From IMG/VR virus record IMGVR_UViG_3300047327_000021, positions 1 through 36,063 of that record: 36,063 nucleotides of DNA; one strand, 5' to 3'. This DNA comes from a virus. The translations under genes were made by a program, and so were the position numbers. Positions 23,953 through 35,296 of this stretch are shown piece by piece (the first letter of the stretch is position 1; each line of letters opens with the position of its first letter). The notes below the pieces were generated by a model. That model searched no databases. It was not told the origin of the DNA and was given only the letters and a program-made list of their open reading frames with translations.

Positions 23953-24440
23953 ACCGACACGCCAGCACGGCGACGCAGCTCCTGCAACGCAGGCCCGGTC
24001 ACGAAGCAGGATCGCGGCCGGGGCCGATCCTCCGGGGGAGGCTCGCTCGACCCACGCAGAATGCGCTTGCATTCCTCTAGGCGCTCTCGAGCGTAAGCGA
24101 GTTCTTCGTCAGTGCGAGGCTTTCGATCCGGAATGTCGCTCGCATCCACGCGACCCGCCAGCAGGCGCACGTCCGCCGGGTCCTTCCGTTGACGGTGCCA
24201 ATCGCTCGACGCCTCCCGCAAAACACCCGCGATCACGTCCCAGGATGGAACTGGGCCGAACCGCTTGGCCTCCACCACAGCGGCGGCGGTGGCCTGCGTG
24301 AAAGCGCCTGGCGCGTATCCCTGCATGTGCCGTCGCATCAGCCGCAACGGCTCTATGGCCAGCCCTGGATTGGCCGGCGACAGCAGCGCGGCGACAACGC
24401 AAATCCACTTCTCGACCGTGGCTTCCGGGGTGCCGGTCAT
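23949..24440 (-). CDS. Hypothetical early protein next to the replication initiator
   Basis: A 163-residue protein coupled to the initiator gene by ATGA. The first part is helical (EKWICVVAALLSPANPGLAI) with PLRLMRRHMQGYAPGAFTQA, followed by SWDVIAGVLREASSDWHRQR and a charged helix (DEELAYARERLEECKRIL). In phages, partners of O-like initiators are often helicase loaders of this size or small helical proteins, so a loader-like role is possible, but no AAA motif is visible. Confidence 0.6.
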   Translation of the reverse strand: MTGTPEATVEKWICVVAALLSPANPGLAIEPLRLMRRHMQGYAPGAFTQATAAAVVEAKRFGPVPSWDVIAGVLREASSDWHRQRKDPADVRLLAGRVDASDIPDRKPRTDEELAYARERLEECKRILRGSSEPPPEDRPRPRSCFVTGPALQELRRRAGVSV

Positions 24441-25288
24441 TGCACAAAACCTCCAAGCGAGGGTTGACGGAAGGGTTCTGGTTCGGCTTCCAGCGATGCG
24501 ATGCGAGACAACTGCGTGGCCAGCGCTGCATCCGACGCGGCTTTTCGAGCATCGAACGGGCTTGGCCGCGACGTTCGTCGTTCGGCCTCAGAGCGGCACC
24601 AGTTGCGCCAAGTGGCGTGCCAGTCGGATTTGCGGCCATCCTTGCCGGGCTTTGCGTGCCAGTAGTCGCGGAACTTGGCGGCGACGGCGCCGGGATCGAG
24701 GTTCAGCGAGGCGGCGAATTTCCGGCCCACGTCATCGGGTTGCCAGTCTTCGGGCAATCGCGATCCTCGGGCCTCCGATGCGCCAAGGGGGACCGACCGA
24801 AGGGAGGGGGTATTTCTTTCTGCTTCTGCTTCTGCTTCTGCTTCTGCTTCTAGGAGGTTAGGGGGGGGGTTATCCCCTGAGGTTATCCCGCCCCCATTTC
24901 CACCCCCATTATCCAAGGGGGTTTTGCTCGATTTAAGGGAGGGGTTGCCGCCCCGTTTACCGTCTTCGCGGGCCTTTTCGGACACCGCGTTATCCCGCAC
25001 CATGCGACGGTTGTAGATCACGGCTTCATCTGTTCGGCTGAATACGCCGGCTTCTTCCAGCTCCTTGATGTAGCTGCGGGCCTGGTTTTCGGAGCACCCG
25101 AAGACGGAAGCAAGCTGCCGAACGGTTGGGGGGCGATTGTTGACCAGCAAATGGCCCTTCGGGTGCGCATCGCTGCAAATCGCCAACATATCCATCCACA
25201 CGCCGCGCGCGCCGGGGCTGCACATGCGCAGGGCAGGATCACGCTGCCAGTCCTGCCACCAGAACTTTGTCCACCGATGTTCGGTCAC
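24437..25288 (-). CDS. Replication initiator-like protein with winged-helix start
   Basis: A 283-residue protein. Residues 1-100 (HRWTKFWWQDWQRDPALRMC, then HLLVNNRPPTVRQLASVFGC) form the start typical of alphaproteobacterial phage replication proteins, with a winged-helix segment (ENQARSYIKELEEAGVFSRT). A low-complexity linker follows (GGGNGGG, then EA repeats), then a C-terminal domain with FAASLNLDPGAVAAKFRDYW and DWHATWRNWC, like the DnaT/O-type helicase-contact domain. It would open the origin and bring in the host helicase. The linker DNA holds a hexamer microsatellite, a C9 run and repeated GGTTATCCC boxes. Confidence 0.7.
   Translation of the reverse strand: MTEHRWTKFWWQDWQRDPALRMCSPGARGVWMDMLAICSDAHPKGHLLVNNRPPTVRQLASVFGCSENQARSYIKELEEAGVFSRTDEAVIYNRRMVRDNAVSEKAREDGKRGGNPSLKSSKTPLDNGGGNGGGITSGDNPPPNLLEAEAEAEAEAERNTPSLRSVPLGASEARGSRLPEDWQPDDVGRKFAASLNLDPGAVAAKFRDYWHAKPGKDGRKSDWHATWRNWCRSEAERRTSRPSPFDARKAASDAALATQLSRIASLEAEPEPFRQPSLGGFVQ
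24821..24850. repeat. Hexanucleotide microsatellite TGCTTC x5
   Basis: Five perfect copies of TGCTTC lie in the initiator gene and encode its Glu-Ala repeat. Each copy lost or gained would change the linker by two residues without breaking the frame. A run of nine G (24861-24869) follows 10 bases later. Confidence 0.85.
24868..24996. other. Iteron-like GGTTATCCC boxes, candidate replication origin
   Basis: GGTTATCCC occurs at 24868-24876 and 24881-24889, GTTATCCC at 24989-24996, and a weaker ATTATCC at 24908-24914. They lie inside the initiator gene, as the lambda origin lies inside gene O. Spacing is irregular, so this is a suggestion only. Confidence 0.3.
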
Positions 25289-25476
25289 GCTGCGCGCCTT
25301 TCTGCAAACGGCAGGACCATGGCGAGCTGCGCAACCGGCGCGCGCTCCCGGCCCTGGTAATCAGCCTCCGCAATCGCCGCGCAAAGGCGGCAGGCGTCTA
25401 TATCGGAAGGGCCAGGCCCGACCGAGACGCACCCCAGATCGGCGCAACTTATGCAGGGCAGGCGGCGACGGATCAT
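25285..25476 (-). CDS. Small Cys-rich protein, probable zinc binder
   Basis: A 63-residue protein from ATG 25476 with CISCADLGC near the start and CRLCAA in the middle, a spacing that could bind zinc. The C-terminal part is helical and basic (YQGRERAPVAQLAMVLPFAE). It overlaps its upstream and downstream neighbours by ATGA, so it is part of the coupled early operon. Function unknown. Confidence 0.55.
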   Translation of the reverse strand: MIRRRLPCISCADLGCVSVGPGPSDIDACRLCAAIAEADYQGRERAPVAQLAMVLPFAERRAA

Positions 25477-25664
25477 GCGCGATCCTCCCGCCGGGTCGAG
25501 CACCAGAACCGCACAAGATCGAGGTCAGGAAACGCTGACAGGTAGCGCGCCGCAGACGGCATTGCGGTGGCTTGGCACGCCTGCAATGTGCCCTGCATCG
25601 GCAGGTTACGGATGGTATCCCCATCGGCGCCATGCAGGACGAGCACGAGATATACGACCTTCAT
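25473..25664 (-). CDS. Small hypothetical early protein
   Basis: A 63-residue protein starting MKVVYLVLVLHGADGDTIRN, with a short hydrophobic beginning and a compact mixed body (ARYLSAFPDLDLVRFWC). ATGA overlaps at both ends support it as real. No family recognised. Confidence 0.5.
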   Translation of the reverse strand: MKVVYLVLVLHGADGDTIRNLPMQGTLQACQATAMPSAARYLSAFPDLDLVRFWCSTRREDRA

Positions 25665-26143
25665 GCCGCGATCCTCGCGGCTGACTGAAACCCATAAAGG
25701 GCAATCATTGCCGCCTCTGCTCGCCCATCGTCTTTGACGCGTGAAAAAGCGCCTGCATGAGAAGGAAACAGTTGCGCCGCCCGCTGGCGACAGTCATCCT
25801 TGTCAGCCCTCACCTGCATCGCCTTTTTCCATTGCTGCGGAGTGACGAAATTGACCGCTACGCCGAGCGCCGCAAGAACGCCTTCGACTGCGCCGGCCGA
25901 ATATCCAAAGGAGAAGCAGGAAGACACCCCCTGCCCGGGCATAGCGCCGACACGCTCGATAAAACTGGCAGAACACGAACGCTCGCGGATCAGGGCCGCC
26001 AACTCCGCGACCGCCAAACGAGTGCGCGTCTTGGCGCCGACCCTCACCTGAAACGAAGGCATGTCGTGAACTGAAATCAGCGCGCCACTGTCCGACAAAA
26101 ATGCAAACGCGCCATGCGCGCCGGGATCAACGCCGACGATCAT
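25661..26143 (-). CDS. RuvC-like Holliday junction resolvase
   Basis: A 160-residue protein from ATG 26143 with GGAGG upstream; a longer frame would cross the neighbouring gene. The RNase H-like fold is shown by MIVGVDPGAHGAFAFL (Asp6), FIERVGAMPGQG (Glu63), the helix-strand KKAMQ segment and a C-terminal KDDGRAEAAMIALY (Asp138/Asp139 and Glu143). These match the acidic catalytic set of RuvC. Length is that of a single domain. It would cut branched DNA during phage recombination or before packaging. It overlaps the previous gene by 17 bases. Confidence 0.8.
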   Translation of the reverse strand: MIVGVDPGAHGAFAFLSDSGALISVHDMPSFQVRVGAKTRTRLAVAELAALIRERSCSASFIERVGAMPGQGVSSCFSFGYSAGAVEGVLAALGVAVNFVTPQQWKKAMQVRADKDDCRQRAAQLFPSHAGAFSRVKDDGRAEAAMIALYGFQSAARIAA

Positions 26144-26645
26144 TTTTGACTGCCCTCCGCAACATCGAAAACCCGTCGCCTTCCCACTCGCTCGCGCGCC
26201 GAGGCTTGATCGGCAGAGGCGCAGGCTCCACAGCCGGCGGCAGATACACGCGCCCGACCGTGCGACGAGACGCAGAGGCGTCAGGCTGCAAGCCCGCCAC
26301 ACGCCTCGACAGGAACTCAGCCGGCACGAAAATACCGAGTGCTGCGGCGATAATGGGCGACGTGTGGCAATTGCGGGTGAGGAACGAATAGGCGCGGTCA
26401 ATCTGCACGTCCTGGTTCACCGACCAGCCCTGCACCCCTCCGGCATCCTTGATCGCAACCCGCAACCGAGCGCGAACATCTTCCCAAAAAATGGCGGCAT
26501 CGACATTCACCGATGCCGCCGAGTTTGAGGAGGAAACGCCCAAGACAGCCCTTACGGGGCCAGCGATCACGGCCTCGGCCGGATTGGGTTGCGCCTCACG
26601 GGCGCGCGATTTTGATGCCGGAACGATAGGACGGTGCGGCGCCAT
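26127..26645 (-). CDS. Hypothetical early protein
   Basis: A 172-residue protein with a Pro/Ala-rich first 35 residues, then a compact middle (FWEDVRARLRVAIKDAGGVQ, VQIDRAYSFLTRN) and a C-terminal basic tail. The middle could be a small DNA-binding fold with PIIAAALGIFVPAEFLSRR; this resembles a helix-turn-helix turn but is not secure. Coupled to the previous gene by TAATG. Confidence 0.5.
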   Translation of the reverse strand: MAPHRPIVPASKSRAREAQPNPAEAVIAGPVRAVLGVSSSNSAASVNVDAAIFWEDVRARLRVAIKDAGGVQGWSVNQDVQIDRAYSFLTRNCHTSPIIAAALGIFVPAEFLSRRVAGLQPDASASRRTVGRVYLPPAVEPAPLPIKPRRASEWEGDGFSMLRRAVKNDRRR

Positions 26646-27034
26646 TACACGCCCTCCGCGCGCACAACGCGCTGACGGATAGCATGGCGGCCCCCACCGC
26701 CTTGAACGCGAACGCCGCGCAGAGCCAAGCGAGTTGCATTTAAGCGATCCCCCAGCGCCGCTTCCGCAGCGCGCAGTTCCAACAATTCTTGTTCCAGGCG
26801 TTCAGCCCTTCGGGCGACGAAATCAGCGTACCATTCGCGCAAACGGTCAGCCTCATCGGAGCGCACAGCCGCGCGGCGATCACCCGCCCAAAATGTGCGA
26901 GCGCGCCGAAACGTCAGGCCGAGGCGACCGGCGGCGCGGCGTATGGACGCCTTGACCGATCCGCCGGGCTCGTGCGGGTATCCGGCCGCCCGCACAATGA
27001 CCTGCATTTCGCAAATGGTGTCACGATCAGCCAC
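26645..27034 (-). CDS. Small DNA-binding (HTH-like) early protein
   Basis: A 129-residue protein from GTG 27034, preceded by GGAG; a TTG one codon upstream is an alternative. Residues 25-55 (SIRRAAGRLGLTFRRARTFW) look like a helix-turn-helix similar to those of other alphaproteobacterial phage early regulators. The rest is a long charged helix (DEADRLREWYADFVARRAER) suggesting dimerisation. It overlaps the stop of the 46-residue gene, so translation is coupled. Its role in early control or replication is inferred. Confidence 0.5.
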   Translation of the reverse strand: MADRDTICEMQVIVRAAGYPHEPGGSVKASIRRAAGRLGLTFRRARTFWAGDRRAAVRSDEADRLREWYADFVARRAERLEQELLELRAAEAALGDRLNATRLALRGVRVQGGGGRHAIRQRVVRAEGV

Positions 27035-27167
27035 CAATGCGCTCCGGGTTTCCGACAGCGCGGCACGGTGGCGTGTGATGGAGTGGGGCCAGCACGCAGA
27101 GGCCCAACCATGCAGACAGAAACCCAGACCAGATGCCGCGCAGCGATGAGGCGGGCGCGGCGGTCAT
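27027..27167 (-). CDS. Short single-helix membrane peptide
   Basis: A 46-residue frame from ATG 27167 that overlaps the cro-like stop by ATGA and overlaps the next gene's GTG start. It has one hydrophobic stretch (IWSGFLSAWLGLCVLAPLHH). The perfect coupling on both sides is the main support. It could be an early phage inner-membrane peptide such as a superinfection or host-takeover factor; no family is recognised. Confidence 0.4.
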   Translation of the reverse strand: MTAAPASSLRGIWSGFLSAWLGLCVLAPLHHTPPCRAVGNPERIGG

Positions 27168-27364
27168 TGGGAAGCCGCCTGCGGGAAGAAATCGTTCGGC
27201 GTCACGGCGCCGTCCGTGTTCTCAAGCACCTTCTGCATCACGGAAGCGGTCGGAACTCGCTTGCCTGTCACATACCTATGCATCGACAGCTCGCAAACAC
27301 CGATAAGGTCACCAAAGGCGCGGGCGCTGATTTTGTTCGATTTCAGGTAATCGCGGAGCTTCAT
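27164..27364 (-). CDS. Cro-like repressor
   Basis: A 66-residue protein, the typical size of Cro. Residues 12-33 (ISARAFGDLIGVCELSMHRY) form a helix-turn-helix, followed by VTGKRVPTASVMQKVLENT and the DGAVTPNDFF end common in small phage Cro/YdaS-type regulators. It is the first gene leftward and divergent from the CI-like repressor gene, with the palindromic operator between them. It would shut off the repressor during lytic growth. Confidence 0.75.
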   Translation of the reverse strand: MKLRDYLKSNKISARAFGDLIGVCELSMHRYVTGKRVPTASVMQKVLENTDGAVTPNDFFPQAASQ

Positions 27365-27371
27365 GCGGCCA

Positions 27372-27401
27372 TGATAACCACACCAGTTACGCTTCCGTCA
27401 A
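27372..27401 (-). promoter_or_regulatory. Leftward early (cro) promoter
   Basis: Minus-strand TTGACG (27401-27396), an 18-base spacer and TTATCA (27377-27372). The operator at 27374-27390 overlaps the -10 box, so bound repressor would block it. The expected start point falls next to the cro ATG (27364), so the message may have almost no leader. Confidence 0.55.
27374..27390. promoter_or_regulatory. Repressor operator over the cro promoter
   Basis: The 17-bp palindrome reads GTAACTGGTGTGGTTAT on the minus strand, with six-base half sites five bases apart. It shares 12 of 17 positions with both sites near 28053 and 28086, covers the -10 of the leftward promoter, and is the expected target of the divergent regulators. 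A degenerate copy with an intact ATAACC half lies at 27417-27433. Confidence 0.65.
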
Positions 27402-27416
27402 CATATGTCGCGAAAA

Positions 27417-27433
27417 ATAACCGGGGCAGTTGT
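27417..27433. promoter_or_regulatory. Weak second operator copy
   Basis: ATAACC, five bases, AGTTGT: the same 17-base spacing as the clear operators, with one intact half and one half matching 4 of 6. It lies 43 bp from the stronger site, between it and the repressor gene, and could serve in control of the repressor promoter. Confidence 0.35.
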
Positions 27434-27466
27434 AGCCAGGGGCGTAGCCCTTTGCACAATGCGCCT

Positions 27467-27820
27467 ATGGCTAACCGGATAGTTGAGCTTCGAAAGGCCC
27501 GAGGGATCAGCCAGCGAAAACTGGCCGGCTTGGTCGATACGTCGTTCCAGCAAATCTACAAACTTGAGAAGGGGATAAACCCCTTAACTCAAGAATGGAT
27601 GGAGAGAATTGCAGCCGCTCTAGGGGTTCGACCGGCGGCGCTGATCGACGCTGACGCGGAACGGCTCCCGGACCCCGAGGTGGAGTCCGAGTTCGTGGAT
27701 GATCCCGACGAACTGGCCCTTTTGTGGCTTTGGCGGGGCGTTAGCGATGACATGAAGACGGCCGCCCTCACTATCCTGCGCAATTCCATGCGCCGCAGCG
27801 GAAACGCGGAAACCATTTAG
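27467..27820 (+). CDS. CI-like repressor without peptidase domain
   Basis: A 117-residue protein from ATG 27467. Residues 4-58 form an XRE/Cro-CI helix-turn-helix domain (IVELRKARGISQRKLAGLVD, then SFQQIYKLEKGINPLTQE). The C-terminal half is short and acidic, then helical (DELALLWLWRGVSDDMKTAA). There is no room for the LexA/S24 self-cleavage domain of lambda CI, so it cannot be cut by the RecA route in the classical way. It is divergent from cro with operator sites between, as for a lysogeny repressor. Confidence 0.75.
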   Translation: MANRIVELRKARGISQRKLAGLVDTSFQQIYKLEKGINPLTQEWMERIAAALGVRPAALIDADAERLPDPEVESEFVDDPDELALLWLWRGVSDDMKTAALTILRNSMRRSGNAETI

Positions 27821-28052
27821 GTCGATAATCTGGCCCATCTGTGACTGACGCCCGCTTATAAGTGTTGTTACATCCCCGGAATTTAGGTCAGGGTCGCAAA
27901 GAAATCATACTTTGTTAGGTGTCCGCAACTAATAGTTGGCAAGTGAGACCCGATTTATCGCGCCCTGGGTGCGGTTTGCACTGCTGATCCTGACCACAGG
28001 CGCGTCACCCCCTTGAATCACCTCCAACCGTAGCCCAGGCGGTTTTAGAAAA
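27821..28052. other. Gene-free region after the repressor
   Basis: No convincing gene in either direction. It contains short dyads such as ACTAATAGT and CTTATAAG, and a separated pair GGTCAGG (about 27887) and CCTGACC (about 27990) that could pair in RNA. No terminator with a T run, tRNA or riboswitch was recognised. With the following 119 bases it forms the upstream region of the rightward operon. Confidence 0.4.
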
Positions 28053-28069
28053 ATAACTGGTTCGGTTAT
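28053..28069. promoter_or_regulatory. Repressor operator, rightward early operon, site 1
   Basis: ATAACTGGTTCGGTTAT, a 17-bp palindrome with the same half sites and spacing as the operator at cro. A weak promoter (TTTAGA at 28044-28049, TATTTT at 28067-28072) overlaps it, so repressor would block rightward transcription. Confidence 0.65.
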
Positions 28070-28085
28070 TTTCTATGGACAGCGA

Positions 28086-28102
28086 ATAACCGATGTGGTT
28101 AT
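28086..28102. promoter_or_regulatory. Repressor operator, rightward early operon, site 2
   Basis: ATAACCGATGTGGTTAT, a perfect ATAACC/GGTTAT palindrome with a five-base centre. Its centre is 33 bp from that of site 1, about three helical turns, which would place two bound dimers on the same DNA face. Confidence 0.65.
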
Positions 28103-28122
28103 CTCTCCACACACCCCCAGCG

Positions 28123-28144
28123 CCCCCGGCAATCCCGCCGGGGG
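28123..28144 (+). other. GC-only 8-bp hairpin in the leader of the rightward operon
   Basis: CCCCCGGC and GCCGGGGG form a perfect stem with a six-base loop, 28 bases before the first gene. No T run follows, so it is not a standard terminator; it may shape the 5' end of the message. Confidence 0.5.
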
Positions 28145-28171
28145 TAGAGGGGGTGGGAAGGCCAAGCAGCC

Positions 28172-28510
28172 ATGTTCCCCAGCACCCTCGTCTTGGACAT
28201 GCGCGTTCCCGCCGACCGCGCCTTGGGCGGTTCGGTCATGGAGCTGCTGGCCTACCCAACCCTGCGCCACGCCCAATCCGCGGCCGACCGCTCCGCCCGG
28301 CACATCACCGAGGCCCGCTGCGAGCTGCGCCGCCTGCTGAACCTGCCCACCAGCACGCACCCGCTCGACCGCATGATGCAGCCGCCTGGCTGGCAATGGG
28401 AGAACGCGCGGCGCCAGTGCTTCCGCATTCGCAATATCCGCCGTTCGCACGCCGCCGCCTTGGCCCGTGTGACGCGCATGACTTCCACCCTCAACCAGAA
28501 GGAAGCTTAA
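28172..28510 (+). CDS. Hypothetical protein, first gene of the rightward early operon
   Basis: A 112-residue protein, Arg-rich and helical (HAQSAADRSARHITEARCEL, then CFRIRNIRRSHAAALARVTR). The ATG at 28172 has GGGAAGG about ten bases upstream; an internal ATG at 28199 is an alternative. It may bind DNA or RNA through its basic helices. No family recognised. Confidence 0.55.
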   Translation: MFPSTLVLDMRVPADRALGGSVMELLAYPTLRHAQSAADRSARHITEARCELRRLLNLPTSTHPLDRMMQPPGWQWENARRQCFRIRNIRRSHAAALARVTRMTSTLNQKEA

Positions 28511-28512
28511 TC

Positions 28513-28776
28513 ATGTTCACGTATTCCAGCATCACAGGCGATCGCCCGCGCAAGGAAGATCGGGCGCGTCCTATCGCCGTATATGCGCCCTACGAAAAGG
28601 CCGTGACCGTGTGCCATCACATCACGGTTGCCGAAGCCCGAACGCTCGCGGCCGAACTCACGCGCGCCGCCAACGAAACCGAAGCGGCCGAGGCGATACT
28701 TGCCCGCCGCGACGAAATCGAAGCGCGTATTCAGGCGGAACTTGCGGCCGGCAATGCGATGCAGGAGGCCGCATGA
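28513..28776 (+). CDS. Small hypothetical early protein
   Basis: An 87-residue protein starting two bases after the previous stop. The beginning is beta-like with YAPYEKAVTVCHHITVAEAR, followed by a long charged helix (ETEAAEAILARRDEIEARIQ). Its stop overlaps the next start by ATGA. Function unknown. Confidence 0.55.
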   Translation: MFTYSSITGDRPRKEDRARPIAVYAPYEKAVTVCHHITVAEARTLAAELTRAANETEAAEAILARRDEIEARIQAELAAGNAMQEAA

Positions 28777-29003
28777 ACCTGGCAGACCGCATTGCCGCCG
28801 CGGCACGCATGATCAATGACCCGCGCGCACGTCGCGCGGTGCTCGACTTGGCGCAACCCGCGTGTGAGCTACAGCAGGAGCGCGACCGCCTGCGCCGCAC
28901 ACTCGAGGAGCTTGCACAAACCGCGCTGGCCGAGGCTATGGCGGCCGAAGCGTGCAACGTGGTGCAGATGCCGCTACCTCGCCCGTTTGGCCGCCGTGGC
29001 TGA
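28773..29003 (+). CDS. Small hypothetical helical protein
   Basis: A 76-residue helical protein with a coiled-coil-like middle (LQQERDRLRRTLEELAQTAL) and a Pro/Arg-rich end. Starts at ATG 28773 with an ATGA overlap. Its stop lies inside the start of the next short frame. Function unknown. Confidence 0.55.
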   Translation: MNLADRIAAAARMINDPRARRAVLDLAQPACELQQERDRLRRTLEELAQTALAEAMAAEACNVVQMPLPRPFGRRG

Positions 29004-29088
29004 CTTTCTTCGCACCCTGGCCTGCACGCTGCTGTTCGTGGCGGTGGTGTATGGCGTCATATGCTCCCCGCTGTTTTTTGGAGATTGA
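28996..29088 (+). CDS. Very short single-helix membrane peptide
   Basis: A 30-residue frame from GTG 28996 that overlaps the previous stop: VADFLRTLACTLLFVAVVYG then VICSPLFFGD. Almost all of it is one membrane helix. The tight overlap before and the 4-base gap after suggest it is translated, as with other tiny phage membrane peptides. Evidence is position and hydrophobicity only. Confidence 0.4.
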   Translation: MADFLRTLACTLLFVAVVYGVICSPLFFGD

Positions 29089-29092
29089 CGCC

Positions 29093-29326
29093 GTGCAAAT
29101 CGAGCGCACCGAGCATCCGGCCGTGTGGCACGTCCTCACCCTGCGCCCGCTGATAAGCGGACGCACGCATGACGGCATCAAATTTCGGTTCGCCGCCCGC
29201 AGCGATGGGCGCGTGACATATTGCGTGGAGGTCATCGGTCAATGGGCCGCCGCCGGTAGTGAGATTGACCTGTCTCGCGCCCAGGCAGAGGCGCAACGCA
29301 TCATCGCGGAGGAACGCACGAAATGA
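29093..29326 (+). CDS. Small hypothetical early protein
   Basis: A 77-residue protein from GTG 29093, preceded by GGAG. Mixed alpha/beta: beta strands (PAVWHVLTLRPLISGR, GRVTYCVEVIGQWA) then a helix (LSRAQAEAQRIIAEE). It overlaps the exonuclease start by ATGA and may be a partner of the recombination genes. Family not recognised. Confidence 0.5.
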   Translation: MQIERTEHPAVWHVLTLRPLISGRTHDGIKFRFAARSDGRVTYCVEVIGQWAAAGSEIDLSRAQAEAQRIIAEERTK

Positions 29327-30000
29327 CCATCCGGTATTTTCCCGAACTCGTGCAGGGCACAGATGAATGGCTATCGGCACGCTGCGGCCTTCTTACCGCT
29401 TCGGAAATGAAGCTGATTTTGACGCCGACGCTTAAAGCAGCATCGAACGACAAAGAGCGCGCGCACCTGTTCGAGCTTCTTGCCCAACGCGAGACGCGAT
29501 TTGTCGAGCCGCAATACGTCAGCTTCGACATGGAGCGCGGCAAAGAAGACGAGATCGAGGCCCGCGCGCTCTACAGCCGGCATTACGCGCCCGTGACGGA
29601 AATGGGTTTCGTTACGAATGACCGATGGGGCTTCACCATAGGTTATTCGCCGGATGGCCTAGTGGGCGACGAGGGCGCGATTGAGGCCAAGAGCCGCAAG
29701 GCAAAATATCAGGTCGAAACCATCCTCGGCCTGACTGTGCCAGATGAATACCTGCTGCAATGTCAAACCGGCCTCCTCGTGTCGGAGCGGCAGTGGATTG
29801 ATTTCATCAGCTACAGCGGCGGCCTGCCCATGATCGTGTTGCGCGTGTGGCCGGACGAGAAGGTGGAGAACGCCATCATCGAGGCGGCCGGCGCTTTCGA
29901 GGAGCGCCTGGCCGCCAAACGTGCGCGATACTTGGAAATCACCAACGGCGGCGGCCGATTGCTGCCGACCATCCGCAAAGAACCCGTGGAGCTTTACTAA
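29323..30000 (+). CDS. YqaJ/lambda-type 5'-3' exonuclease
   Basis: A 225-residue protein of the YqaJ viral recombinase family. Residues 10-28 (VQGTDEWLSARCGLLTAS) are the family start, residues 70-84 (MERGKEDEIEARALY) the helix with GxxxEEExR-like pattern, and Asp111 in SPDGLVG with Glu121-x-Lys123 in AIEAKSR form the metal-binding D-(E/Q)xK centre; Tyr143 and Gln146/Gln148 fit the YxxQ motif. It degrades one strand from DNA ends to leave 3' tails for annealing. The next gene overlaps by one base (TAATG) and is probably its partner. Confidence 0.8.
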   Translation: MTIRYFPELVQGTDEWLSARCGLLTASEMKLILTPTLKAASNDKERAHLFELLAQRETRFVEPQYVSFDMERGKEDEIEARALYSRHYAPVTEMGFVTNDRWGFTIGYSPDGLVGDEGAIEAKSRKAKYQVETILGLTVPDEYLLQCQTGLLVSERQWIDFISYSGGLPMIVLRVWPDEKVENAIIEAAGAFEERLAAKRARYLEITNGGGRLLPTIRKEPVELY

Positions 30001-30779
30001 TGTCCGATCTTTCCGCCGCAATCAAACCGAAGGCCGACCAGCTCACCGCCGACGATTTAATTCCCGGCCCGATCACCATTCAGATTACCCGCGTGGACGT
30101 GACCACGGGCGATCAGCCGGTCTCTGTCCACTTCGAAAATGACCACGGGAAACCCTGGCGCCCGTGCAAGACAATGGCCCGCGTGCTGGCCAACCTGTGG
30201 GGGCCGGACAGCTCCACCTTCACCGGCCGCGCCGTGACGCTCTACCGAGACCCAAAGGTGAAGTTTGGCGGGCTCGAGGTTGGCGGCATCCGCATCAGCC
30301 ACATGAGCCACATCGACGGGCCGCAAACCATGGCCTTGACCGTCACGCGCGGCAGCAAGAAGGCGCACAGCGTCAAGCCGCTGGGCAAACCTGCACAAGC
30401 CCCACAAAGAGCCGCGGCACCCGCACAGCAGCAGGCAGCACCAGCACCGGCCAAAGCTGCACCCGGGCCCGACAAAGCCGCCATCGGCACCGAGGGCTTG
30501 ATTAAGCGGTATGAGGCCGCGGCATCGCTTGCCGAGCTACACGCGATGACGAGAGACGAGGCGATTAAAAATCAGCGCGCCTGGCTGTTCCAGCACCGGC
30601 CCGAACTCGATGCGAAGCTGAAGGCCGCATACCTTGCCGCGCAGGAACGGTTGAGCGTGCCGCCGCCCGTTGAGGAAGAAGACGACTTCCCGGGCGTGGT
30701 GACGCGGGAAGATCCGGACCCGTTCGCCGTCGATGCGACCGTGGCGGGCTATGGGCAAGATACGCGGATGGCGGGTTGA
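30000..30779 (+). CDS. Recombination partner, possible ssDNA-binding or annealing protein
   Basis: A 259-residue protein overlapping the exonuclease gene by one base. Residues 1-125 form a compact domain (LTADDLIPGPITIQITRVDV, CKTMARVLANLWG, GRAVTLYRDPKVKFGGLEVG) seen beside YqaJ exonucleases in other phages (from memory). Residues 130-160 are an Ala/Pro/Gln-rich linker, and the C-terminal part ends acidic (EEEDDFPGVVTREDPDPFAV), like the acidic tails of ssDNA-binding proteins. It may coat or anneal the 3' tails made by the exonuclease. It does not show a clear RecT or Erf signature. Confidence 0.6.
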   Translation: MSDLSAAIKPKADQLTADDLIPGPITIQITRVDVTTGDQPVSVHFENDHGKPWRPCKTMARVLANLWGPDSSTFTGRAVTLYRDPKVKFGGLEVGGIRISHMSHIDGPQTMALTVTRGSKKAHSVKPLGKPAQAPQRAAAPAQQQAAPAPAKAAPGPDKAAIGTEGLIKRYEAAASLAELHAMTRDEAIKNQRAWLFQHRPELDAKLKAAYLAAQERLSVPPPVEEEDDFPGVVTREDPDPFAVDATVAGYGQDTRMAG

Positions 30780-30780
30780 T

Positions 30781-31152
30781 GTGACCGACCCCGCCGCATG
30801 GAGCATCGAGGAGGAGGCCCGCCGTCTGGGTATTTCGCTTCGCCACTTGGCCTGTCAGATGGCCAAGCACAAGCCGCCGATCTTGCGCGCCGGCCGCCGG
30901 GTGCTGTTCGATGCCGTCGCGCACCAAACTCTGATCGAGGCCATGCGATGCCCCGCACCCGCCAGCCCCCCGGCCTCCGCGTCGTCACCCGCAAAGGCAC
31001 CGCCACCTATTACCTCCGGGGAACGGTGCGCGGCATCCGCGTCTACGAAAGTGCTGGCACTACAGACGAAGCACTCGCCCACGAAGCCCGCGCGGCGCGG
31101 GAGGCGCAACTGTTCCGTGGTTCCGTTCACGGGTTCGCGACCGCCCGCGTAA
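30781..31152 (+). CDS. Excisionase-like DNA-binding protein
   Basis: A 123-residue frame from GTG 30781, two bases after the previous stop codon. The first about 55 residues (WSIEEEARRLGISLRHLACQ, then RAGRRVLFDAVAHQTLIEAM) are a winged-helix MerR/Xis-like fold, and the position directly before integrase fits excisionase. The rest of the frame overlaps the integrase start by 205 bases and is Pro/Ala/Ser-rich, so the functional part may be only the N-terminal half. It would bend attP/attL DNA and favour excision. Confidence 0.6.
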   Translation: MTDPAAWSIEEEARRLGISLRHLACQMAKHKPPILRAGRRVLFDAVAHQTLIEAMRCPAPASPPASASSPAKAPPPITSGERCAASASTKVLALQTKHSPTKPARRGRRNCSVVPFTGSRPPA

Positions 31153-32048
31153 GCTGGGCCGAGGCCGCGCTATCCTACCTCCAGGCCGAACCCCGCGCCC
31201 CGTCCACCCTGATCTTCGTTCAGCGCCTCACCCGGCATTTCGGCACCAAGGCGTGCCGCGACATTGACCAGGTTGCCATAGACGCCGCGTGCCGCGCCCT
31301 ATGCCGCCCGACCGCCAAGCCCGCGACCAAGCTCCGCAACGTGGTGGGACCGGCGCGCGCGGTGCTCCTGCACGCCTGCCGCCGCGGCTGGTGCGATGCC
31401 CCGCGCTTCGAGATCGCCCGCCCCAGCCCCGCCCGCACCGATTGGCTGACACCGGCCGAGGCGGAGGCCATGATCGCGGCGGCCGAGCGGTGGACGAAGC
31501 ATGTCCGGCCGCTTCTCATCTTCCTGTTCTGCACCGGCGCGCGGATGGGCGAGGCCCTGGCCCTGACCTGGGATGACGTGGACCTGCGGCACGCTCGAGC
31601 GGTCCTGCGCGACACCAAGGGTGGCGGCGATAGGCTGCTGGACCTGCCGCCGCGGGCCGTGGCCGAGTTGGCGAACCTGCCCGGCCGCAAGGCCGAGGTC
31701 TTCCGCGCATGGGGTGGAGCCGCCTACCGCGCGACCAACGCCAGTCAGGGCGGCGCCTACGGGGGCCAGATCGCAAAGGCGTGGGCGACCTGCGCCAAGG
31801 CCGCCGGCATCCGGCGGCACGTCACCCCGCATCACGCCCGGCACACATGGGCAAGCTGGCACTATGCCGTGCACAAAGACCTGTTGCTCCTCCGCCGCGA
31901 TGGCGGATGGGCCAAGGTGGACATGGCCGAGCGGTATGCACACCTGACGCCGCCCGGCTTGGCGCCCGAGATAGTCCGGTTTTGGGGCGTGTCTGCGTGT
32001 GCACAGATGGTGCAGACCGATTTCCAAGCGGCAAAAAAGGAGGGCTAA
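30948..32048 (+). CDS. int: Tyrosine-type site-specific integrase
   Basis: A 366-residue tyrosine recombinase starting at ATG 30948; upstream in-frame starts lie in the excisionase gene. The N-terminal about 60 residues form an arm-binding-like domain (KGTATYYLRGTVRGIRVYES), residues 70-150 a core-binding SAM-like domain, and the catalytic domain shows Arg199 (CTGARMGEALALTWDDV), Lys224 (DTKGGGDRLLDL), His295-x-x-Arg298 (TPHHARHTWASW), Trp321 and the nucleophile Tyr330 (AERYAHLTP). The full catalytic set is present. The gene ends 39 bases before the tRNA-derived attP core, the usual arrangement. Confidence 0.9.
   Translation: MPRTRQPPGLRVVTRKGTATYYLRGTVRGIRVYESAGTTDEALAHEARAAREAQLFRGSVHGFATARVSWAEAALSYLQAEPRAPSTLIFVQRLTRHFGTKACRDIDQVAIDAACRALCRPTAKPATKLRNVVGPARAVLLHACRRGWCDAPRFEIARPSPARTDWLTPAEAEAMIAAAERWTKHVRPLLIFLFCTGARMGEALALTWDDVDLRHARAVLRDTKGGGDRLLDLPPRAVAELANLPGRKAEVFRAWGGAAYRATNASQGGAYGGQIAKAWATCAKAAGIRRHVTPHHARHTWASWHYAVHKDLLLLRRDGGWAKVDMAERYAHLTPPGLAPEIVRFWGVSACAQMVQTDFQAAKKEG
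31999..32015. repeat. 17-bp direct repeat left of attP, possible integrase arm site
   Basis: GTGCACAGATGGTGCAG is identical to 32220-32236. The repeat also contains a dyad, TGCAC-five bases-GTGCA. The two copies lie about 105 and 116 bp from the middle of the attP core, one on each side. This copy lies inside the 3' end of the integrase gene. Confidence 0.6.
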
Positions 32049-32087: not shown

Positions 32088-32136
32088 TCCCTTGGTAAGG
32101 GAGAGGTCGAGAGTTCAATCCCCTCCAGCAGCACCA
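32088..32136 (+). other. attP core: 3' half of tRNA-Thr(GGT)
   Basis: The sequence runs through an anticodon stem-loop with TTGGTAA at 32092-32098 (anticodon GGT, 32094-32096), the variable AGGTC, a T-arm with TTCAATC and an acceptor end CAGCAGC-A-CCA (32126-32136). No matching D-arm or 5' acceptor strand precedes it, so it is a tRNA fragment and not a functional gene. Phages that integrate into tRNA genes carry this kind of 3' half to restore the host gene. The T stem has one A-C mismatch. Confidence 0.75.
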
Positions 32137-32186
32137 TTCTTCAGGCACTTAGCGACCGGGCGGCACCTGCACGAACCCGGAACGCT

Positions 32187-33275: not shown

Positions 33276-33899
33276 TCAGCGAACCCACCGGGCAACCAGC
33301 AGGTAAGAGTGATTCTTGCGAGCGTGGTGCTGCGCCTTGTGTCGCATAAGCGGGGTGACGGTCTGCCGCAACACGAACTCGTCCTCGATCCGAAACCCGA
33401 TCATCGGCAGCACGGTCATAAGCTGAACGTGCGTCATCTTCTGAACGTGGTCGGCCACCGCAGGCTGGCACTTGATGAACAAGACGCCTTGCCGACGCAG
33501 CACGCGCCTAGCCTCTAGGATGCCGGCCAGATAGAGCGCGATCACGTTCTCATGGCACATATTGCCGCCGTTGTCGGCGCGCGAAGTCTTGTAGCACTTC
33601 TCGACGCTGGCCTTCACGTTGCCGCCGCCGTTCATGTATGGCGGGTCGAACACCACGGCATCGAAGCTGCCTGCCTCATAGGGCAAGCGCGTAAAGTCCA
33701 CGCCGGTTTGCAAATCGGACGGGACAAGATCGTATGCGCCGACCGGAATATTCCGCCAGAACACGCCATTGCCATACGTCACGTCTGCCACGCGGGCACC
33801 AGGCTCGACATACAGGCCAAGAGCAATGGGGAACAGTTCGGCGTTCGTCCCCTCGTGGCAAGTCAGAACGGGCTTTTTCGGCTCGGCGGCATCAAACAT
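33276..33899 (-). CDS. DNA methyltransferase (DPPY type)
   Basis: A 207-residue protein from ATG 33899 with AGGAGG five bases upstream. SAM-binding motif I reads ADVTYGNGVFW (about residues 37-47) and the catalytic motif IV is VFDPPYMNGG (about 82-91), typical of N6-adenine or N4-cytosine methyltransferases. The order is motif I before motif IV and no separate target-recognition domain is visible, so specificity may be short or determined by a partner. No restriction gene is next to it. It overlaps the repeat-protein gene by 8 bases, and the PAPS-reductase-like gene follows directly. Confidence 0.75.
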   Translation of the reverse strand: MFDAAEPKKPVLTCHEGTNAELFPIALGLYVEPGARVADVTYGNGVFWRNIPVGAYDLVPSDLQTGVDFTRLPYEAGSFDAVVFDPPYMNGGGNVKASVEKCYKTSRADNGGNMCHENVIALYLAGILEARRVLRRQGVLFIKCQPAVADHVQKMTHVQLMTVLPMIGFRIEDEFVLRQTVTPLMRHKAQHHARKNHSYLLVARWVR

Positions 33900-34350
33900 A
33901 ATACCTCCTGTTGAACGTCCCACCGCCTCTAGCCGCCTCCGCGGCCGGCTTGATGTTAGGGCAGTTCCACACCAACACGTCGGTCGCGGCGGGCATGTCC
34001 GGCAGCGCGGTCAGGCCGGGGCAGTTCCACACCAACACGTCGGTCGCGGCGGGCATGTCCGGCAGCGCGGTCAGGCCGGGGCAGTTTTCCACCCGCACGT
34101 CGGTCGCGGCGGGCATGTCCGGCAGCGCGGTCAGGCCGGGGCAGTTTTCCACCCGCACGTCGGTCGCGGCTGGCAGGTCTGGCAGCGCGGTCAGGCCGGG
34201 GCAGTTCCACACCCGCACGTCGGTCGCGGCTGGCAGGTCTGGCAGCGCGGTCAGGCCGGGGCAGTTCCACACCCTCACGTCGGTCGCGGCGCCCGCTTCG
34301 GCAAAAAAAGTTTCTTGGGAAACAGCTACTTTATTGATGTAAAACGCCAT
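33892..34350 (-). CDS. Leucine-rich-type 20-residue tandem repeat protein
   Basis: A 152-residue protein from ATG 34350 with AGGAG upstream. After a 20-residue head (MAFYINKVAVSQETFFAEAG), the sequence repeats every 20 residues: AATDVRVWNCPGLTALPDLP. Six copies of AATDVxVxNC are seen, five followed by the complete PGLTALPD(L/M)P part. The pattern V-x-V-x-N-C-x-x-L-x-x-L-P matches cysteine-containing leucine-rich repeats (L-x-L-x-x-C-x-x-L-x-x-L-P). Differences are limited to a few positions: W/E, R/L and L/M. It probably folds into a small solenoid for binding a partner. Function unknown; first gene of an operon with a methyltransferase and a PAPS-reductase-like enzyme. Confidence 0.75.
   Translation of the reverse strand: MAFYINKVAVSQETFFAEAGAATDVRVWNCPGLTALPDLPAATDVRVWNCPGLTALPDLPAATDVRVENCPGLTALPDMPAATDVRVENCPGLTALPDMPAATDVLVWNCPGLTALPDMPAATDVLVWNCPNIKPAAEAARGGGTFNRRYYV
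33961..34290. repeat. 60-bp tandem repeat, 5.5 copies
   Basis: Copies start at 33961, 34021, 34081, 34141 and 34201, with a half copy at 34261-34290. The first two are identical over 60 bp; the others differ at few bases, mostly where the encoded W/E, R/L and L/M differ. It codes for the repeat protein. Such close copies allow gain or loss of whole repeats by recombination without frameshift. Confidence 0.95.
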
Positions 34351-34387
34351 CTTTACGCTCCTGAGTTGGGGTTTCTGTGTGCCGCCA

Positions 34388-34416
34388 GTTATACGCCTAC
34401 GCTGTAATACAGTCAA
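34388..34416 (-). promoter_or_regulatory. Promoter of the repeat-methyltransferase operon with a palindrome in its spacer
   Basis: Minus-strand TTGACT (34416-34411), 17-base spacer, TATAAC (34393-34388). A perfect 11-base palindrome CTGTAATACAG (34402-34412) covers the -35 edge and spacer, suggesting an operator. The first gene starts 38 bases after the -10. Confidence 0.65.
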
Positions 34417-34459
34417 CGACAATGTTTGACACGCGGCGCGGTTTGTGCGACAAAGCGGC

Positions 34460-34666
34460 ATGAGCTACACCGCCCCAATGACCAAAAAGCCGCCGCTAGG
34501 CATCCGCTTTGAGCCGTATGAGCAGGACGCCCTAGAGGCAGCCGCCAAGGCAGACGACAGGCCAACCAGCGCGCTTGGCCGGAAGATCATTCTGGATTGG
34601 CTGCGCGCGAACGGGTGGCTTGGCGACGGCCCCGCTTTAGGCCCCAAACCTCCGAGCGCGGTATGA
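34460..34666 (+). CDS. Small ribbon-helix-helix-like regulator
   Basis: A 68-residue protein from ATG 34460 (ATG 34478 is an alternative). The region PPLGIRFEPYEQDALEAAAK followed by DDRPTSALGRKIILDWL fits a ribbon-helix-helix DNA-binding fold: a short strand and two helices. It is divergent from the repeat-protein operon, whose promoter holds a palindrome, so it may control that operon. A TTGACA at 34426-34431 with a weak GACAAA 17 bases on may be its promoter. The serine recombinase follows 6 bases later. Confidence 0.6.
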   Translation: MSYTAPMTKKPPLGIRFEPYEQDALEAAAKADDRPTSALGRKIILDWLRANGWLGDGPALGPKPPSAV

Positions 34667-34672
34667 AAGCCA

Positions 34673-35296
34673 ATGGCACCGACCGAGCCTGCCAAGCCCT
34701 TCCTCGTCGGTTATGCCCGCGTCTCGATGGAGGACCAGGACAACGCCCGGCAGATCGAGGAGCTAACCCGCTACGGCGTGGACCCGCGCGACATCCACAA
34801 GGACAAGGCGAGCGGCCGCACGATGGACCGTCCCGGCTGGCGGGACCTGTGGCGGGACATACGCGAGGGCGACGTGGTGGTGATCCTGTCGCTGGATCGG
34901 CTTGGCCGGGACGTGCTTCAGATCCTTCAGACCGTCGAAGCCATGAAGGCTCGCGGCGTCGAACTGCACGTCATCAACGGCGGCTTCGACACGCAGACGC
35001 CCGTGGGCCGGTTCACGTTCAACATCATGGCGGCGATGGCGCAGTTCGAGCGGGAGCTGATCCACGAACGGACGATGCACGGGCTGGCCAAGGCCAGGGA
35101 GCGCGGCGTCATCGGCGGCCGGCCGGTCACGATCACGGCCAAGATCATCGAGGATTGCCTACAGCGCCAGGCCAAGGGCGAGAGCGTCCGCCAGGTGGCC
35201 GAGAGCCACAAGGTCAGCATGGGCGGGCTGAAGAAGGCTTTGGACCGGCATCACAAGCGCAAGCGCATGGAGGACACTGAGAATGGCCGACACTGA
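34673..35296 (+). CDS. Serine recombinase (resolvase/invertase family)
   Basis: A 207-residue protein. Residues 12-18 (VGYARVS) hold the catalytic Ser18, followed by the resolvase pattern DRPGWRDLWRDIREGDVVVI, SLDRLGRD, and FTFNIMAAMAQFERELIHER (the E helix), then a C-terminal helix-turn-helix (KGESVRQVAESHKVSMGGLK). Length and domains match Hin/Tn3-type small serine recombinases. The target is unknown; no inverted repeat pair for an invertible segment was found by eye. It is cotranscribed with the RHH-like gene and converges with the lysozyme gene. Confidence 0.85.
   Translation: MAPTEPAKPFLVGYARVSMEDQDNARQIEELTRYGVDPRDIHKDKASGRTMDRPGWRDLWRDIREGDVVVILSLDRLGRDVLQILQTVEAMKARGVELHVINGGFDTQTPVGRFTFNIMAAMAQFERELIHERTMHGLAKARERGVIGGRPVTITAKIIEDCLQRQAKGESVRQVAESHKVSMGGLKKALDRHHKRKRMEDTENGRH

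Follow-up and report, generated by a model that had tools for sequence, protein, structure and literature searches.

The window analysed here is an entire viral contig record of 36,063 bases. Its immunity region reads, in order, cro (leftward), the operator group OR, the repressor gene (rightward), the operator group OL and a rightward recombination-integration operon. Compared with lambda this layout is a mirror image, with cro and replication in one direction, recombination and integration in the other, and the repressor gene between them. The features are as follows.

24437..27037, minus strand: leftward early operon 3' of cro (phrog_26665 protein, RuvC-like resolvase, HTH_36 replication-like protein)
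27164..27364, minus strand: Cro-like HTH protein of 66 aa, first gene of the leftward early operon (weak Pfam HTH_3 match)
27374..27390, minus strand: OR operator on the cro side, GTAACTGGTGTGGTTAT, spanning the spacer and -10 of the predicted cro promoter
27396..27401, minus strand: probable -35 box TTGACG of the leftward cro promoter (5/6 to TTGACA), 5 nt upstream of the 27374-27390 site
27417..27433, no strand assigned: degenerate OR operator on the repressor side, ACAACTGCCCCGGTTAT on the minus strand, one mismatch
27467..27820, plus strand: repressor gene, 117 aa, N-terminal HTH_3 (Pfam E 8e-11)
28030..28046, plus strand: possible weak third OL site (uncertain), GTAGCCCAGGCGGTTTT, two mismatches, 23 bp upstream of the 28053 site
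28053..28069, plus strand: inner OL operator, ATAACTGGTTCGGTTAT
28076..28081, plus strand: probable -35 box TGGACA of the rightward early promoter (5/6 to TTGACA), 4 nt before the 28086 site
28086..28102, plus strand: outer OL operator, ATAACCGATGTGGTTAT, spanning the spacer and -10 of the predicted rightward promoter
28172..32048, plus strand: rightward early operon (small ORFs, YqaJ exonuclease, phrog_11517 protein, tyrosine integrase)
29323-30000, plus strand: YqaJ exonuclease (Pfam YqaJ 3.5e-13)
29997-30779, plus strand: phrog_11517 protein (PHROG 11517, 9e-54)
about 30948-32048, plus strand: tyrosine integrase (Pfam Phage_integrase 2.1e-18)

Several other features lie to the right of this region. 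Directly past the integrase stop, positions 32100-32143 carry ggtcgagagttcaatcccctccagcagcacca, which resembles a tRNA gene's 3' end, CCA included, and is likely an attP core; ARAGORN found no whole tRNA at this stretch. Alongside its tyrosine integrase the phage also encodes a serine resolvase (34673-35293, Pfam Resolvase 4e-42). A 189-aa ORF on the minus strand (33892-34461) consists of about five near-identical 20-aa repeats of the ATDVRVWNCPGLTALPDLPA kind, with a 60-bp unit and 95% matches.

The putative operators are 17-bp palindromes of consensus (A/G)TAAC(C/T)-N5-GGTTA(T/C), present in four copies starting at 27374, 27417, 28053 and 28086. A first-pass annotation had listed the 27374, 28053 and 28086 sites and a degenerate copy at 27417-27433. 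The coordinates and sequences of the first three were correct, and the fourth is present with one mismatch to the consensus, 33 bp separating its end from the repressor start. Its account of where they lie, on the two sides of the repressor gene with one group at the promoter of leftward cro and the other preceding the rightward operon, was borne out as well. The distance from OR to OL is 679 bp, start to start.

The symmetric pattern RTAACYNNNNNRGTTAY occurs exactly three times in the 36,063-base record, each time in this region, and the reversed control pattern is absent from the same record. A genome-wide motif search, which the earlier reading had named as a check, returned four matches when up to one mismatch was allowed, exactly the four named sites and no further copies. 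Shuffling the record 400 times with dinucleotides preserved gave 0.11 matches on average at this threshold and never more than one per 730 bp. A free search for palindrome families over whole loci was dropped, being swamped by G+C-rich repeats, and a gap-to-gap test with controls was used instead. Here the best palindrome common to the cro-repressor gap and the post-repressor gap was scored without any motif and compared with 150 control segments. It scored 76.8 against a control maximum of 63.7, a score that no control reached (0/150). Finally, a matrix built only from the sites of related phages gave its three best scores in the 36 kb to 28086, 28053 and 27374, in that order. The site at 27417 came fifth, just under an isolated weak match of chance level at 24870, and is for this reason the least certain of the four.

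Pairs of TAACY-N5-GGTTA palindromes lying 12-42 bp from each other were sought in 2.9 million viral contigs, using no protein information. Of the 95 loci found, three (L049, L090 and L109) encode relatives of both the repressor and Cro immediately beside the sites. Because L049 and L090 are 99% identical and count as one lineage, these amount to two independent relatives with this operator type. When the pattern was permuted with its composition kept, the scan gave 99 loci, none of which encoded a relative of the repressor or of Cro. L090 carries three OR and two OL sites in groups 488 bp apart, and L109 two OR and two OL sites in groups 3,459 bp apart; the spacing of the OL sites is 33-34 bp in both of these and in the present phage. 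A further locus of the scan, L072 (1030-1383), has a weakly related Cro-like gene (30% identity) preceded by two copies of TTGACTGTTAATAACTTTTATGGTTAT in direct orientation; beside this gene a relative of the present repressor was not detected.

The comparison with L090 and L109 also bears on the promoters. At the outermost sites of both groups in all three phages (6/6), a hexamer matching TTGACA in at least five of six positions lies 4-5 nt upstream, with a background probability of about 0.006 at each site. At the outer OL site the counterparts of the -35 box are TGGACA in L090 and TTGACG in L109. None of the remaining sites tested in the three phages has such a hexamer 4-5 nt upstream. With the -35 box in this position the operator would fill the spacer and place GGTTA(T/C/G), its right half-site, in the -10 region. 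A generic sigma-70 scan of 27150-28250 gave no promoter above threshold, the 27396-27401 box included, and both predicted early promoters therefore rest on the comparison with relatives and not on consensus strength. The cro ATG starts 9 bp past the operator, so the cro leader is probably very short or absent.

These observations bear on whether the palindromes could have arisen by chance or could serve some regulator of the host that has nothing to do with the phage switch. Short palindromes are common, and many of the 95 pattern loci are AT-rich or repeat-rich contigs unrelated to this phage. However, such an account has to face the shuffle, control-segment and control-pattern tests, and also the coupling of the sites to cognate repressor and Cro genes and to -35 boxes. 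A chance origin is rejected, and the alternative as a whole, host regulator included, is highly improbable. The sites, their layout, their position at the predicted promoters and their conservation with the cognate genes can be read directly from the DNA.

The repressor is 56% identical to its relatives in L090 and L049, 44% to that in L109 and 41% to that of phage MT835519. For Cro the identities are 42-43% in MT835519, L049 and L090 and 41% in L109, and Cro matches HTH families weakly by profile. Direct searches with the repressor found no relative among viral contigs and only two distant Saccharopolyspora HTH proteins among genome contigs. The 117-aa repressor has no match to the S24 peptidase domain in Pfam, a domain that its relatives in L109 and MT835519 do carry; judged by domain content it is not of the self-cleaving LexA/CI type. 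About 50 residues lie C-terminal to its HTH domain. We considered a SinR-like C-terminus, which a PDB sequence search with the C-terminal part did not support; the whole repressor matches SinR weakly, mainly via the HTH part.

Searches with either protein, repressor or Cro, yielded six phages with a divergent cro/repressor pair: MT835519, Microcystis phage Mae-JY35, Mesorhizobium phage vB_MseS-P1, Acetobacter phage phiAP1 and Rhizobium phages RHph_I1_23 and RHph_Y25. All six have a palindrome, common to the cro-repressor gap and a gap past the repressor gene, that scores above all 150 control segments, a result slightly favoured by choice, since two candidate gaps were tried for some phages. 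The shared site of vB_MseS-P1 is a poor dyad and was given less weight. The sequence of the shared palindrome differs from phage to phage among the six. Queries with the exonuclease and integrase gave contigs L006-L010, which carry related genes and in which this repressor was not found. One of them, L009, which has a related exonuclease, contains an ORF of long GSSGDAARIGSSG-type repeats (1933-2877) near a Cro-like gene.

Across these relatives the operator sequence appears to track the recognition helix of the repressor, a covariation seen by eye in a small set and without statistics. TAACC half-sites go with TSFQQIYKLE in this phage, TSLQQIYKLE in L090 and VSRQQVWKLE in L109, giving the pattern (T/V)S-x-QQ(I/V)(Y/W)KLE. 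The helix of MT835519, VSFSTVAKLE, goes with the operator TTGTCCGC. ATACCA operators are found with TSQPQIRRLE in Mae-JY35 (L015) and TSQPQIKRLE in RHph_Y25 (L020). Because these two helices are nearly identical (TSQPQI[RK]RLE) and the operators are of the same type, we predict that Mae-JY35 and RHph_Y25, recorded from distant hosts, share immunity specificity.

By its layout the predicted system is a paired OL/OR immunity switch of the lambda type, a new member and ordinary in kind. Divergent repressor and cro-like HTH genes have operators between them, and a second group of the same type lies on the far side of the repressor gene, where the opposite, recombination-integration early operon has its promoter, as in lambda. 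The palindromes are of 17 bp, as in the lambda CI/Cro system, and are predicted to overlap the early promoters as the lambda operators do. The operator sequence differs from that of lambda, however, and there are two clear sites per group whereas lambda has three; the groups are 0.6 kb apart and not 2.3 kb, and the 117-aa repressor has no detectable S24 domain. Acetobacter phage phiAP1 (LC644972) has the same layout, with a divergent cro-like gene and a 120-aa repressor flanked by operators about 460 bp from each other, but its operator is TTCGCA-N3-TGCGAA and its Cro is just 26% identical. The phiKO2/N15 immB region resembles the present one in having OR between repressor and cro and OL elsewhere, all bound by one repressor (PMC4997575), and the repressors of both phages are without conserved self-cleavage residues (PMC4997575). 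In these phages, however, OL lies at the replication gene repA, the operators are of 16 bp and of other sequence, and phiKO2 Cro is confined to OR3.

The nearest studied system from an alphaproteobacterial host known to us is that of Rhizobium phage 16-3. The 16-3 operators, with ACAA/TTGT half-sites, differ from those described here. Phage 16-3 is not among the 11 phage records matched by the repressor (tblastn, E 1e-3), a collection that may not include it. PL and PR are the promoters of its control region, on which the C repressor is the only regulator known (PMC3694467).

Taken together, these findings suggest that the palindromes are operators of the phage's own immunity repressor, in a lambda-like layout that would silence both early operons; we put the probability of this reading at about 0.86. 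Control of both early operons by one operator type, as the first-pass annotation proposed, is very likely, because the operator pattern alone recovers cognate repressor and Cro genes and the placement of the -35 box is identical in three phages. Repressor binding, repression, autoregulation and a role for Cro are what we infer from the sequence. Repressor dimers occupying the outermost sites of the two groups in the prophage would cover the spacer and -10, and bound repressor would exclude polymerase from the cro and rightward promoters alike, so that both early operons would be silenced together. The OR site on the repressor side probably tunes expression of the repressor itself. Once the prophage is induced, Cro is likely to compete for OR, at least in part.

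The share of Cro could be narrower than this. The repressor alone may bind both groups, with Cro binding only one OR site or none and acting mainly on the repressor promoter. Compatible with the main explanation, which it refines, this arrangement is plausible if somewhat short of even odds. In phiKO2 the repressor bound all five operators and Cro only OR3 (PMC4997575), and across the relatives the operator follows the recognition helix of the repressor more closely than that of Cro. On the other hand, L090 and L109 keep a Cro relative together with the same operator type, which fits Cro binding too. Binding of Cro at OL is doubtful, since phiKO2 Cro leaves OL unbound and binds only the operator adjoining the repressor gene (PMC4997575).

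A further possibility is that repressor molecules at the two operator groups also interact across the 0.6-kb repressor gene and form a DNA loop, which would strengthen repression and control the repressor promoter. Looping would add to the operator reading and is compatible with it; we consider it rather unlikely. It would require tetramers of the short repressor. In lambda, CI closes a loop of about 2.3 kb between OL and OR (PMC5880393), and SinR, a repressor of similar size for which looping has been proposed, tetramerises via a short C-terminal helical domain (PMC3163267). The roughly 50 residues that follow the HTH domain in the present repressor also count in favour, but they have no sequence match to a tetramerisation or other known oligomerisation domain, and a single-sequence structure model of the repressor (mean pLDDT 51) is too poor for a fold search or for use on this point. 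Furthermore, the OL-OR distance varies from 488 bp in L090 to 3,459 bp in L109, so there is no conserved loop length. Less likely still, and offered as speculation, is a minimal switch in which the 117-residue repressor, having no cleavage domain, bridges an OL-OR loop and is inactivated without RecA-driven self-cleavage. Such a loop would contain little beyond the repressor's own gene.

Given a short repressor that apparently cannot be cleaved, one may ask how such prophages become induced. More broadly, coordination of both early operons by a single operator type appears to recur among phages distant from lambda, and each of these has a palindrome of its own that fits the recognition helix of its repressor. 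Immunity groups may accordingly be predictable from sequence, with Mae-JY35 and RHph_Y25 forming one type and this phage, L090 and L109 another.
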